DNA of 36,327 nucleotides from Oceanibaculum indicum P24. GTDB taxonomy: Bacteria > Pseudomonadota > Alphaproteobacteria > Oceanibaculales > Oceanibaculaceae. The notes under the pieces were generated by a model. The model did no database searches. It saw only the letters and a program-made list of their open reading frames with translations, and was not told the DNA's origin. The stretch is from assembly GCF_000299935.1 (NCBI RefSeq), contig NZ_AMRL01000030.1, positions 1 to 36,327 on the forward strand, given 5' to 3'. The position numbers and the translations under genes were made by a program. Shown piece after piece: positions 795 to 32,308 of the stretch (its first letter is position 1; the number at the start of each line of letters is the position of its first letter).

Positions 795-3697
795 GCGGCG
801 GCCCCCTGGATGGTCTCAACCGCATCGGCGCAGCGCTGGCACACCGCCTCATGGCCCGGCACATGGCCAACCTCGGGCAGCTGCCGCCAGCAGCGCTCGC
901 ACTTCTCGCCGCCGGCCAGTCCCGGCACCACGGCCACGCCGGCGACATCCGGCAGGCGGAAGGCGTCCGCCGGTGCCGCGTCCGTGGTCAGGGTGGCGCC
1001 GGAGGTGATGAAGATCTCCGCCGCGTCCAGCCCCTCATAGGCCTTCACCGCCTCGCCCGAGACATGCACGGTGGGGTGCGCCTGCAGGGAGGAGCCGATG
1101 CGCTTCTGCGCGCGCTCCAGTTCCAGCGCGCCGGTGACGACACGGCGCACATCGCGCACGATCTCCCACTTCTCGGCCAGCGCCGCGTCCAGCCAGTCCA
1201 CCGGGACCTCGGGGAACAGCTCCAGATGCACCGACCAGTCCTCGGACGGGTGCCGGGCAAGCCAGGCCTCCTCCATGGTGAAGGGCATCATGGGCGCCAG
1301 CCAGGTGACGACGCTGTGGAACAGCCGGTCCACGACATAGAGGGCCGCCTTGCGGCGCGGGCTGTCCGGCGCGTCGCAATAGACCGCGTCCTTGCGCACG
1401 TCGAAATAGAAGGCCGACAGATCGACCGTCATGAACTGGATCATCGCCGCGACGATGCGCTTGAAGTCATAGACGCGGTAGCTGTCGCGCACCAGCCGGT
1501 CCAGCTCCGCCAGTCGGTGCAGCATCAGGCGCTCCAGCTCCGGCATCTCGGCCAGCGGCATGGCGGTGCCGTCATAGCCGTCCAGCGTGCCCAGCATCCA
1601 GCGCACCGTGTTGCGCATCTTGCGGTAGGCATCGGTGGTGGTCTTCAGGATTTCCGGGCCGATGCGCTGATCCTCGGCATAGTCGGTGCTGACCACCCAC
1701 AGGCGCAGGATATCGGCGCCGGACTGGTCGATCACATCCTGCGGGAACACCTGGTTGCCCAGCGACTTCGACATCTTGCGGCCGTCCTCGGCCATGGTGA
1801 AGCCGTGGGTGATGACCGCATCGTAGGGCGCGCGCCCGCGCGTGCCGCAGCTTTCGATGAGCGAGGAATGGAACCAGCCGCGATGCTGGTCGGTCCCTTC
1901 CAGATAGACATCCGCCGGCCATTTCAGGTCGGGCCGCTGCTCCAGCACGAAGGCATGGGTCGAGCCGGAATCGAACCAGACGTCGAGAATGTCGCGGACC
2001 TGCTCCCACGGCTCCAGATCGTTCACCAGCCCGGTGAGGAAGCGCTCCTTGGCACCCTCGGCGAACCAGGCATCCGCGCCTTCCGCCATGAAGGCATCGC
2101 GGATGCGCTGCGCAAGATCGTCACTGCCGGCGAAATCCGGGCCGGGGGCCAGCTCGCCGGTCTCCTTGTGGCGGAACACGGCGATCGGCACGCCCCAGGC
2201 GCGCTGGCGCGAGACCACCCAGTCCGGCTTGTTCTGGATCATCGAGCGCAGCCGGTTCTGCCCGCCCGCCGGATAGAAGGCGGTCTCGTCGATGGCCTTC
2301 AGCGACCGCGCGCGCAGGCTGTCGCCCTTGCCGTCGATGTCGCGGTCCATATGGATGAACCATTGCGGCGTGTTGCGGAAGATGATCGGCTTCTTGGAGC
2401 GCCAGCTGTGCGGATACTGATGCTTCAGCCGCCCCCGCGCGACCATCATGCCCGCCGCCGCCAGCGCATCGATCACAGCCTGGTTGGCATCGCCCTTCTC
2501 GCCCGTGTCGGTGATGATTCGGCGGCCCTCGAAGCCGGGCGCTTCCTTCGTGAAGAAGCCGTCATCATCCACCGTGAAGGGGATGGTGGTGTCGATGCCG
2601 CGCGCGGAAAGCTCGCGCGCATTATCCATCCAGGCCTCGAAGTCGTCCGCGCCATGGCCGGGGGCGGTGTGCACGAAGCCGGTACCGGCATCGTCGGTCA
2701 CATGGTCGCCCGCCAGCAGCGGCACGTCGAACTCGTAGCCCTGACCGCGCAGCGGATGGGCGCAGATACCGCCGGCAAGCGCCTCGCCCGGTACGCCGGT
2801 CAGCCGCTCATAGCCATCGACCTTGGCCGCCTTCAGCACGCCCTCGGCCAGCGCATCGGCCAGGATCAGCTTCTGCCCCTTCGCCGCCCAGTTGCCCTCC
2901 GGCGCGTCCGTCACCTCATAGAGGCCGTAGGAGATGCGATCCGAATAGCAGATCGCCCGGTTGCCCGGCATGGTCCAGGGGGTGGTGGTCCAGATCACCA
3001 CGCTGGCGCCGTCCAGCGCCGGGTCGCCCGCCTTCACGACGGGGAAACGCACGAAGATCGTATCCGACTGGTAGTCGTGATACTCGATCTCAGCCTCGGC
3101 CAGCGCGGTCTTCTCGACGACCGACCACATGACCGGCTTGGAGCCGCGATAGAGCTGGCCGGTGCGCGCGAATTTCTGCAGCTCGGCGGCGATGATCGCC
3201 TCGGCCTCATAGGCCATGGTGAGGTAGGGGCGGTCCCAGTCGCCCTCGACGCCCAGCCGGCGGAACTCCTCGGACTGGATGGCGACCCATTTTTCCGCAT
3301 AGCGCCGGCATTCGGCGCGGAAATCGTTGATCGGCACCTCGTCCTTGTTGCGGCCGGCGGCGCGGTATTCCTCCTCCACCTTCCATTCGATGGGCAGGCC
3401 GTGGCAGTCCCAGCCGGGGACGTAGTTGGAATCCTTGCCCAGCATCTGCTGCGAGCGGGTGACCACATCCTTCAGCGTCTTGTTCAGCGCGTGGCCGATA
3501 TGCAGATGGCCGTTGGCATAAGGCGGGCCGTCATGCAGCACGAACAGCGGCCGGCCCTTGGCAACTTCCCGCATCTTCCGGTACAGGCCGATCTTCTGCC
3601 AGCGCTCGATCAGGCGTGGCTCCATCTGCGGCAGGCCCGCGCGCATCGGGAAATCGGTCTTCGGCAGAAAGACGGTCGCTTTGTAATCAACGCTCAT
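791..3697 (-). CDS. ileS: Isoleucyl-tRNA synthetase
   Basis: Class I aminoacyl-tRNA synthetase that charges tRNA-Ile, with CP1 editing. From the ATG at 3697 it has 968 residues. The HIGH signature is at 66-69 and KMSKS at 641-645. The C-terminal zinc-ribbon cysteines are two CxxC pairs at about 933/936 and 953/956. A TTG six codons upstream also keeps the frame open, but [20 protein letters not shown] is the usual alphaproteobacterial N-terminus and the ATG is preceded by AAGAG, so ATG is preferred. It lies 68 nt downstream of ribF and overlaps lspA. No truncation or missing catalytic motif is seen. Confidence 0.97.
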
Positions 3698-30418: not shown

Positions 30419-31825
30419 CTAGAGTCTGGACCGGGCGAGAAAGCGCAGGGTCAGCGCCACCGCGACACTGGCCAAGCCGATCACGAAACCCAGCCACACG
30501 CCATAGACGCCGCCCCAGCCCGGCGCGATATCGACCCAGTAGCCCAGCACCACCGCACCGGTGAAGCCCAGCCCCCAATAGCCGGCAATCGCATAGGCCA
30601 TCGGCACAGCGGTATCGCGCAGGCCGCGCAGCGCCCCCAGCGCGATGGTCTGGGTGGCATCGAACAGCTGGAACCAGGCCGCGATCAGCAACAGCCGCAC
30701 CGCGATCTCGATGACCGGCACATTCTCCGCCAGCGCGTGATCGAGGAACAGGCCGGCGATGAAATCCCCCGCCAGCCAGAAGCCAAGCGCCGCCAGCGCC
30801 GCATAGCCGAGGCCAAGCGACAGCGAGATGACGCCTGCCCGTCGCACGCCCGGCCGGTTGCCGGCCCCGACCGCCAGCCCGACACGGATCGTCGTCGCCT
30901 GCGACAGGCCATAGGGCACCATGAAGCTGAGCGCCGCGCATTGCAGGGCGATGGCGTGTGCCGCCAGCGCCTGGATGCTGATGGCGCCGATCAGGAAGCT
31001 GGCGGCCGAGAACAGCCCGACCTCAGCCAGGTTGGTCAGGCCGCTGGGCACGCCGATGCGGAAGATGGTGGCGAAGCGCGACCAGTCCGGCCGCCACCAG
31101 CGCGCCAGGATGCGATAGCGCCGCAGCCGCCGGTTCGTCAGGCAATAGGCCAGCAGCACGGAGAACATGGCGATGTTCACCAGCACGGAGCTGACCGCCG
31201 CGCCCACCAGCTCCAGCCTCGGAAAGCCGAAATTGCCGAACATCAGCGTGTAATTGCCGAGGATGTTCAGGAAGAAGCCGGTGGTGGAGCTGATCAGCAC
31301 CAAATGCGCCTTGCCATGCGATGCGACCAGGATGCGCAGCGGAATCAGCCACAGGACGAAGGGGATGGCGATCAGCGAGACATGCAGATAGCTCTCCGCC
31401 AGCGTCACCGCCTCCGGCTGCTGGCCCAGCAGCGACATGATCGGCGCGGAGAACAGCAGCACGAAGAAATAGGGCACCGACAGCGCGGCTCCGGCCCAGA
31501 ATCCCTGTCGCACGCTGCGCCGGACATTGCGGAACTGCCGCGCCCCCAGCGCCTGCGAGATCATCGGCGCGACCGCCGCCAGAATCCCCATGCCCAGGAA
31601 AAACAGCGGAAACATGTAGTTGGTCGCCAGCGTACCGGCGGCCAGCATTTCCGGCCCCAGCCAGCCGGTCATCACCACGTCGGTAGTGTTGATCGCCATC
31701 TGGGCGAGCTGCGCCAGGATCAGCGGCAGCGCCAGCTTCAGCGTGGCGCGGGTCTCATCCCAGTTGGGCCGGCCGCTCTCGGCAGGCGGGCGGGTGTCTT
31801 TCAAAAGACTGGCGGCGACGGACAT
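30419..31825 (-). CDS. MATE family multidrug/Na+ (or H+) antiporter, NorM-like
   Basis: 468 residues with about 12 membrane segments. The NorM-type N-terminus is LKLALPLILAQLAQMAINTTDVVMTGWLG. Other typical parts are APMISQALGARQFRNVRRSVRQG and the second-half repeat RIGVPSGLTNLAEVGLFSAA. MATE pumps export cationic drugs and dyes. GGAGG lies 8 nt before the ATG. No promoter was recognised in the 71 nt between the upstream intrinsic terminator and the start codon, so expression may depend on reading through that terminator. Confidence 0.93.
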   Translation of the reverse strand: MSVAASLLKDTRPPAESGRPNWDETRATLKLALPLILAQLAQMAINTTDVVMTGWLGPEMLAAGTLATNYMFPLFFLGMGILAAVAPMISQALGARQFRNVRRSVRQGFWAGAALSVPYFFVLLFSAPIMSLLGQQPEAVTLAESYLHVSLIAIPFVLWLIPLRILVASHGKAHLVLISSTTGFFLNILGNYTLMFGNFGFPRLELVGAAVSSVLVNIAMFSVLLAYCLTNRRLRRYRILARWWRPDWSRFATIFRIGVPSGLTNLAEVGLFSAASFLIGAISIQALAAHAIALQCAALSFMVPYGLSQATTIRVGLAVGAGNRPGVRRAGVISLSLGLGYAALAALGFWLAGDFIAGLFLDHALAENVPVIEIAVRLLLIAAWFQLFDATQTIALGALRGLRDTAVPMAYAIAGYWGLGFTGAVVLGYWVDIAPGWGGVYGVWLGFVIGLASVAVALTLRFLARSRL

Positions 31826-31896
31826 TCTTCATTCCTCCGCCGAGGGAGCCGGACAGACGGGGCGCTGGATTTTGGTGGCAAGCAGCCTGGCAGAAA

Positions 31897-31931
31897 TAAA
31901 AAAGCGCGCCTTCGTCAGGGTCCGGCGCGCT
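31897..31931 (-). terminator. Intrinsic terminator / candidate attenuator upstream of the MATE gene
   Basis: On the minus strand: AGCGCGCC, 13-nt loop, GGCGCGCT, then TTTTTT and ATTT. It lies 25 nt past the leader ORF stop and 71 nt before the MATE start. The GCGCGCC arm is repeated at the end of the leader ORF (31961-31967), so an alternative pairing is possible. Confidence 0.75.
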
Positions 31932-31956
31932 CGGCTGTTCTTATTTCAGCGTTGGA

Positions 31957-32049
31957 TTATGGCGCGCGGCGGGCGGACTCGTTCCGGGATTCCGACGGAA
32001 TTCCCGCGAGAGAGACAGCCTCGATCCTGATGAAGGTGCGTTTTGCCAT
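31957..32049 (-). CDS. Candidate 30-residue leader peptide for the MATE gene
   Basis: ATG at 32049, TAA at 31957-31959. The peptide starts MAKRTFIRIEAV and ends ESARRAP. It is basic, with six Arg in 30 residues. AGGA lies 5 nt before the ATG, and a promoter ends only about 10 nt upstream, so the message may be nearly leaderless. An 8-bp stem with one bulge (31985-32006) sits inside the ORF. The ORF sits between a promoter and a terminator that precedes a drug exporter, the usual place of a regulatory leader peptide. Translation is not proven; a small RNA with the same ends is the alternative. The rest of the 483-nt gap holds the promoter, terminator and REP copy 2. Confidence 0.45.
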   Translation of the reverse strand: MAKRTFIRIEAVSLAGIPSESRNESARRAP

Positions 32050-32058
32050 AATGATCCT

Positions 32059-32087
32059 GTCCTACCCGCCCCTCGCCGCCCGGTCAA
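32059..32087 (-). promoter_or_regulatory. Promoter of the MATE leader
   Basis: On the minus strand: TTGACC (32082-32087), 17 nt, TAGGAC (32059-32064). The predicted start is near 32052, giving a transcript of about 155 nt if it stops at the terminator. Confidence 0.6.
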
Positions 32088-32152
32088 GCCGGGAAGTTAC
32101 AGAGATGAGGATGCCGGTGATTACGCACCGGCATCGCCCCATTTTTCTTCCC

Positions 32153-32268
32153 GTCACCCCCGCACTTGTTGCCCATGGGCACATCGGGGGTCCAGGCTTC
32201 CGCTTGCTGGATCGACTGTCGAGTAAACTGAACCCTGGATTCCCGGCACAAGGCCGGGAATGGCAGTC
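32153..32268. repeat. Paired REP-like element, copy 2, with altered unit 1
   Basis: Same layout as copy 1. Unit 1 is interrupted: after CCCCCGCACTTGTTG come extra bases forming GCCCATGGGC before CGGGGGTCCAGG. Unit 2 forms ATTCCCGGC-ACAAG-GCCGGGAAT. Compared with the other copies, its innermost pair is changed on both sides (G-C to C-G), which keeps the stem. Confidence 0.85.
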
Positions 32269-32308
32269 AGAGGAGGGGGTTAGCGGCAGAGAATGAGGCC
32301 TTACTTGC

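Follow-up and report, generated by a model that had tools for sequence, protein, structure and literature searches.

We propose, at a probability of about 0.88, that the MATE efflux transporter gene of Oceanibaculum indicum P24 is controlled by a ribosome-mediated transcription attenuator, in which the end of a small leader ORF (sORF) can pair with an intrinsic terminator. The first-pass annotation had suggested a translation-coupled attenuator at this place, and that reading is supported by conservation of the sORF and terminator, by folding, and by recurrence of the design in another order. The parts of the leader, their conservation, pairing and geometry, the reading-frame statistics and the recurrence of such leaders ahead of RNA-repair genes were all read from sequence and computation.

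Leader of the MATE gene

The window (the whole stretch of DNA analysed, 36,327 nucleotides) corresponds to contig C30 of an alphaproteobacterial genome of 3.95 Mb. Its MATE protein scored above the cut-off of TIGR00797 and below those of the NorM equivalogs; drug export is predicted from the family matches. Its neighbours are accA, which follows it, and a MOSC-domain gene, which precedes it. All of the parts listed in the first-pass annotation (promoter, 30-codon ORF, hairpin, ORF end, terminator, Shine-Dalgarno sequence and MATE gene) were located on the minus strand where it had placed them (Table 1). The sORF would be nearly leaderless, with a predicted 5′ UTR of ~3 nt, and its product had no Pfam match. 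The hairpin inside it (region 1:2) is probably an RNA polymerase pause site.

Table 1. Features of the MATE gene and its leader in the window
Feature	Position	Strand	Basis and details
Predicted sigma-70-type promoter, TTGACC-N17-TAGGAC	32059..32087	-	Sequence; kept in G001 and G002; TTGACC 32087-32082, 17-nt spacer, TAGGAC 32064-32059; predicted start ~32052
Leader sORF MAKRTFIRIEAVSLAGIPSESRNESARRAP, 30 codons	31957..32049	-	ATG 32049, TAA 31959-31957; frame and start conserved in two congeners
In-sORF hairpin GGGAATTCCGTCGGAATCCC (region 1:2)	31985..32006	-	GGGAATTCCGTCGGAATCCC at ~32005-31986; MFE -7.5 kcal/mol folded alone
Region 3: GTCCG (31978-31974), bulge CCCGC, GCGCGC (31967-31962)	31962..31978	-	Overlaps last sORF codons
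Region 4: GCGCGCCGGAC, terminator 5′ arm and first loop bases	31920..31930	-	Invariant in three congeners; folding
Intrinsic terminator AGCGCGCC / GGCGCGCT, then T-run	31903..31931	-	Sequence; conserved in congeners; AGCGCGCC 31931-31924, 13-nt loop, GGCGCGCT (region 5) 31910-31903
Shine-Dalgarno GGAGG of MATE gene	31834..31838	-	Sequence; CTCGGCGGAGG invariant in three congeners
MATE start ATG	31825	-	Sequence
MATE family efflux transporter, NorM-like, 468 aa	30419..31825	-	Pfam PF01554, E 2e-56; TIGR00797 above cut-off

The proposal that GCGCGC at the ORF end pairs with the terminator 5′ arm was correct but incomplete, in that the antiterminator also uses GTCCG, whose partner is CGGAC in the loop of the terminator. 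The full antiterminator is formed by GTCCG...GCGCGC with GCGCGCCGGAC, the computed duplex of regions 3 and 4 being about -17 kcal/mol, and region 4 can take either region 3 or region 5 as its partner. No promoter was seen between the terminator and the MATE gene, either by promoter scan or in the sequence, in line with the earlier remark that no other was visible. A stock scan of the leader called neither the promoter nor the terminator, because its criteria are stricter (loops of up to 8, 9/12 promoter matches). Searches of the window and leader loci against Rfam, riboswitches included, gave no family at the gathering threshold.

Just upstream of the leader promoter lies a dispersed repeat, CGGCCTTGTGCCGGGAATCCAGGGTTCAG...TGGACCCCCG...GGGGGTGACGG (window 32145-32280, minus strand), with 43 matches in the window genome at E <= 0.001. 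It is present upstream of the G002 leader and absent upstream of the G001 leader.

Conservation within the genus

For comparison within the genus, four genomes were used, the window genome included (the others being G001, G002 and G003). The MATE ortholog was found in two of the three others (94% and 81% identity, the latter in G002); the fourth genome, G003, has a distant MATE only. Absence of the sORF or terminator from relatives had been named as evidence against an attenuator, and both are kept in the G001 and G002 leaders. Upstream of both orthologs are the promoter TTGACC-N17-TA, an sORF (MAKRTFIRLVTVPFSAVKEDSRDESARRAP or MDKRITIRLQALRTAGECLSPQDESVQRAPNFR) with the conserved ending (D/N)ES(A/V)(R/Q)RAP, a mid-ORF hairpin and the terminator. 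The mid-ORF hairpin folds at -7.5 to -14.3 kcal/mol at the matching place in three congeners, despite differing sequence. The sequence at the ORF end is GTCCG-CCCGC-CGCGCGC in two of the congeners and GTCCG-TCCAA-CGCGCGC in the third, so that the bulge alone changes. Between the window and G002, pairing positions are identical at 30/30, against 60/119 for the other leader positions (Fisher p = 2.6e-8). In the G002 leader the stop codon of the sORF is displaced 10 nt downstream and the T-run is not continuous, which counts against the proposal.

Folding and proposed mechanism

Folding of the two alternative states gave mutually exclusive pairings that fit the switch predicted earlier. When region 3 was masked by a ribosome with its P site at codon 24 or later, the terminator formed with P = 1.0 in three congeners; with the ribosome at codons 1–19, ~6–11 pairs of region 3:region 4 formed before the terminator 3′ arm was transcribed. 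On these foldings, prompt translation should terminate transcription, and slow, stalled or absent translation should allow read-through. In equilibrium folding after full transcription the completed terminator frequently outcompetes the antiterminator, and the switch must therefore be kinetic. Attenuators normally act kinetically.

In the proposed mechanism, RNA polymerase would start just upstream of the sORF. A prompt ribosome reaching the sORF end would cover region 3, leaving regions 4 and 5 to pair; the terminator would form and the MATE gene would stay untranscribed. If translation of the sORF were slow, stalled before ~codon 20 or absent, region 3 would be free to pair with region 4 before region 5 emerged, and transcription would continue into the MATE gene. 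Transcription from the promoter, translation of the sORF, and termination and read-through at the leader are thus predicted steps, as is the switching on of efflux when translation is inhibited. The natural trigger would be a general slowing of translation, by ribosome-targeting compounds or damaged translation machinery, and not one amino acid or drug. Assignment to the attenuator class agrees with a short ORF placed between a promoter and an intrinsic terminator, its coding suggested by reading-frame statistics from the second order, and with an antiterminator that excludes the terminator and has a strand covered by the ribosome at the ORF end.

Two established types of attenuator were considered and rejected. 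An amino-acid operon attenuator (trp, his, leu) has no counterpart here, as the peptides carry no such codon run and a MATE gene lies downstream. An ermC-type drug-specific translation attenuator was set aside since the peptide varies in the larger family and the output is an intrinsic terminator, not a masked Shine-Dalgarno sequence.

The same architecture in a second order

Among other families sampled, an sORF ending EESAR, followed by a terminator, was seen upstream of the MATE gene in one, f5 (genome G007). A survey of this second order, together with 40 further upstream regions, yielded some 40 MATE leaders of a single kind, spread over several genera. These comprise a TTGACT-N17-TACC promoter, an sORF of mostly 23–35 codons, R3 (the counterpart of region 3, GGCTCGCGAGG), the terminator CCTCCCGAGCC...GGAGGG-T-run and the MATE gene. 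As in the window leader, R3 pairs with the terminator 5′ arm and loop (R4, CCTCCCGAGCC). The leader sequence is unrelated to that of the window genus; the architecture is the same, including the spacing between ATG and R3 (71 nt in the window genus; 65–74 nt in most second-order leaders).

In every one of 38 second-order leaders the sORF reaches its in-frame stop exactly 11 nt downstream of R3. In the frame of that stop, 36 of the 38 have an open ATG 40–95 nt upstream, against 2 and 0 for the two remaining frames. The Ala codon inside R3 is GCT in 32/34, and GCT makes up 41 of the 875 Ala codons of the second-order MATE genes; the Arg wobble base in R3, which has no partner in the duplex, varies between C, T and G. 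Because GCT is fixed in R3 though rare in the MATE genes, selection appears to act on base pairing and not on the peptide. In the second-order alignment R3:R4 was paired in 95% of cells, falling to 28–59% when slid by 1–3 columns. Double-sided covariation was not found inside the second order, where R3 and R4 are too invariant; pairing-preserving changes were seen across families, with U-A to C-G in the MATE leader of family f64 and GAGG/CCTC to GAGA/TCTC in L136.

The leader is unevenly distributed. Certain members of the second order are without it, as are the majority of the other alphaproteobacterial MATE genes examined, which counts against the proposal, and the scanned MATE relatives (named genomes and further class genomes) gave no convincing case of an ESAR-type sORF or generic attenuator. 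An exact f5 pattern run over 385 class genomes matched one genome only and was too strict.

Other conserved elements were seen before MATE genes. In another genus of the second order (L171, L176, L178) a mini-ORF, MDIR(S/P)A* or MDIRTPT*, is conserved after a tRNA-like gene and accompanied by a hairpin (CGCCGCC..GGCGGCC), perhaps as a different type of leader. Three Rhizobium loci (L072, L078, L105) have a conserved terminator-like hairpin, GCCGCTCGCCAG..CTGGAAGCGGC-TTTTTT, ~20 nt ahead of the MATE start codon.

The variability of the second-order peptides bears on the possibility that the leader peptide stalls ribosomes for one drug class or one scarce charged tRNA, as in the specific sensing exemplified by the ermC and trp leaders. 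Conservation of the N-terminal MxKRxxIR in the window genus would fit such sensing, as would the Cys or Ser/Thr codons that, by eye, are frequent in the second-order peptides. However, those peptides are highly variable outside the end encoded by R3 and have no common codon run, the N-terminus of the leader peptide is not conserved across the larger family, and the foldings predict read-through whenever a ribosome halts at any point before ~codon 20, and equally when no ribosome is present. We consider specific sensing unlikely.

The terminator could also be constitutive, the short transcript serving as a small RNA or peptide mRNA and the MATE gene being reached by rare read-through; a short leaderless RNA with a terminator does resemble the trans-acting rnTrpL of Sinorhizobium meliloti (PMC7298713). 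But the loop bases that pair with the ORF end (GGAC, CGAGCC) are conserved, stop position and pairing are conserved together, and the peptide varies; we judge this reading quite improbable. A trans role of the short RNA could coexist with cis attenuation.

Like leaders before RNA-repair genes

A covariance model of the second-order leader was run over the 385 class genomes, with genes named by Pfam, and matches were found outside the second order. Most model hits below ~30 bits (e.g. L207, L211-L213) were excluded, being terminators that belong to other genes. Family f64 has a leader (R3 GCCCGCGAGGG, R4 CCCTCCCGGGC) before a gene reading as a MATE transporter; this is the leader with the U-A to C-G replacement relative to the second order, and its T-run is weak. 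In G007 a second leader was found ~4.5 kb upstream of the MATE leader, before a Ro60 (TROVE)-RtcB operon whose end adjoins the start of the MATE leader. A leader also precedes Ro60-RtcB in G437, rtcB immediately in G411, and in G417 both rtcB and, separately, RlaP-Hen1-kinase genes. A survey of the 54 rtcB-bearing genomes among 376 added leaders in G205 and G307 (f124) and G145 (f64), with G194 less sure; most of the rtcB upstream regions in these 54 genomes showed no leader.

R3 and R4 vary between families yet stay complementary. Across these wider families the distance from ATG to R3 is ~68–101 nt for the likeliest starts, and stops fall 1–19 nt past R3. For six loci (L214, L223, L254, L265, L267, L268) the promoter rule did not fire, and support comes from the sORF, pairing and terminator. 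Neither rtcB nor, by model search, a second f5-type leader better than E = 1.2 was found in the window genome; lacking rtcB, the device there can serve the pump and not rtcB.

Several details of these loci were recorded. On the minus-strand reading of L234 (G007:C14), two attenuators of the same type stand in a row, at ~2439 and ~7000. In L236 (G417:C26) the attenuator-like leader is followed by an RNA-repair set of RlaP (PF10127), Hen1 (PF12623) and a kinase-like AAA_33 protein. A protein encoded after rtcB in G417 and after a leader in G173 (MRDDMFKVIVERPRWG... in L237, MRKDMYKVIVERPRRG... in L239) is possibly an RNA-repair partner; the first gave no Pfam match. The G417 rtcB locus (L253) has YrlA (Y RNA-like) and tRNA matches at its two ends (plus 117-203, minus 3000-3132).

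We give about an even chance to the broader reading that one alphaproteobacterial attenuator class provides a dispersed stress response for MATE efflux and RNA repair (rtcB, Ro60-rtcB, RlaP-Hen1-kinase), sensing ribosome transit without a dedicated protein regulator. Its members would share an sORF of ~25–35 codons and an ORF end that pairs with the terminator arm and loop, with GGGAGG/CCTCCC-like sequences outside the window genus.

Chance occurrence and origin

The frequency of the full configuration was assessed with a detector that demanded a terminator, pairing of R3 with R4 at <= -15 kcal/mol, the stop codon of an sORF at R3, and a promoter of the form TTGAC-N16-18-TA. It was applied to both strands of the window and fetched loci (1.8 million strand-bases) and found 32 places, all before MATE genes of the two leader-bearing groups, in a corpus that is enriched for MATE upstream regions and includes the window leader repeatedly (in the window, L001 and L002). 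Without the promoter demand 6 more places were found, one being the real leader of G002, which the full detector had missed through one base of the distance rule. An ordinary terminator of an upstream transcript beside a chance ORF, with the MATE gene under its own promoter, is very improbable: the strict rules of the stock scan do leave the leader without a promoter-like or terminator-like site, but the order promoter-sORF-terminator is conserved in two orders, no chance occurrence appeared elsewhere in the corpus, and a start codon lies ~40–100 nt ahead of the ORF-end segment everywhere.

In a tree of 85 proteins, made by a quick search and with weak deep forks, the two leader-bearing groups of MATE proteins do not branch together. 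Their leaders may have arisen by common descent followed by losses, by transfer or by convergence.

Relation to known systems and significance

The nearest parallels to the proposed attenuator were compared. The bmrBCD leader of Bacillus subtilis, where leader-peptide attenuation of an exporter is induced by several ribosome-targeting antibiotics, likewise has a translated leader ORF, an intrinsic terminator, a competing antiterminator and a multidrug exporter downstream (PMC4191407). It differs in that it belongs to a Firmicute, controls an ABC exporter and has its terminator inside the bmrB coding region (PMC4191407). It shows no sequence relation to the window leader, which has a 30-codon, nearly leaderless sORF whose end overlaps the antiterminator strand, and a MATE gene downstream. 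Induction by several antibiotics, demonstrated for bmrBCD (PMC4191407), would be expected of the window leader. The PA5471.1 leader of armZ (MexXY) in Pseudomonas aeruginosa also encodes a leader peptide, with proposed transcription attenuation through which ribosome impairment would increase efflux; however, it controls an anti-repressor and not the pump directly, the pump is of the RND type, and the mechanism is a proposal only (PMC12057347). In trpLE(G) of S. meliloti, also alphaproteobacterial, the RNA begins at the sORF start codon and ribosome position picks antiterminator or terminator, but Trp codons sense tryptophan and biosynthesis is controlled (PMC7298713). The toiL uORF (E. coli topAI) and the whiB7 uORF sense several classes of ribosome inhibitor, as the window leader would; toiL differs in that it exposes a hidden ribosome-binding site, Rho-dependent termination is involved, and its induction needs translation (PMC12121999), whereas lack of translation should itself induce the window leader. 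Further exporters under leader-peptide attenuation, mef/mel and lmo0919, are given in a table of PMC5418344.

Ribosome-mediated attenuation of exporters is therefore already known, and the proposed theme of pump and RNA repair is the novel part, its link to RNA repair being what would surprise specialists. In the open literature searched there was no report of leader-peptide attenuation of a MATE exporter, nor of rtcB or Hen1 RNA-repair operons; the known control of rtc is by the activator RtcR (PMC9650030, PMC7790460). If the proposal is true, a cheap RNA device would switch on efflux, and elsewhere RNA repair, whenever translation falters. The question of which signal controls RNA repair in bacteria that may lack RtcR would then become directly testable, and the leader architecture would offer a search pattern for more such operons.
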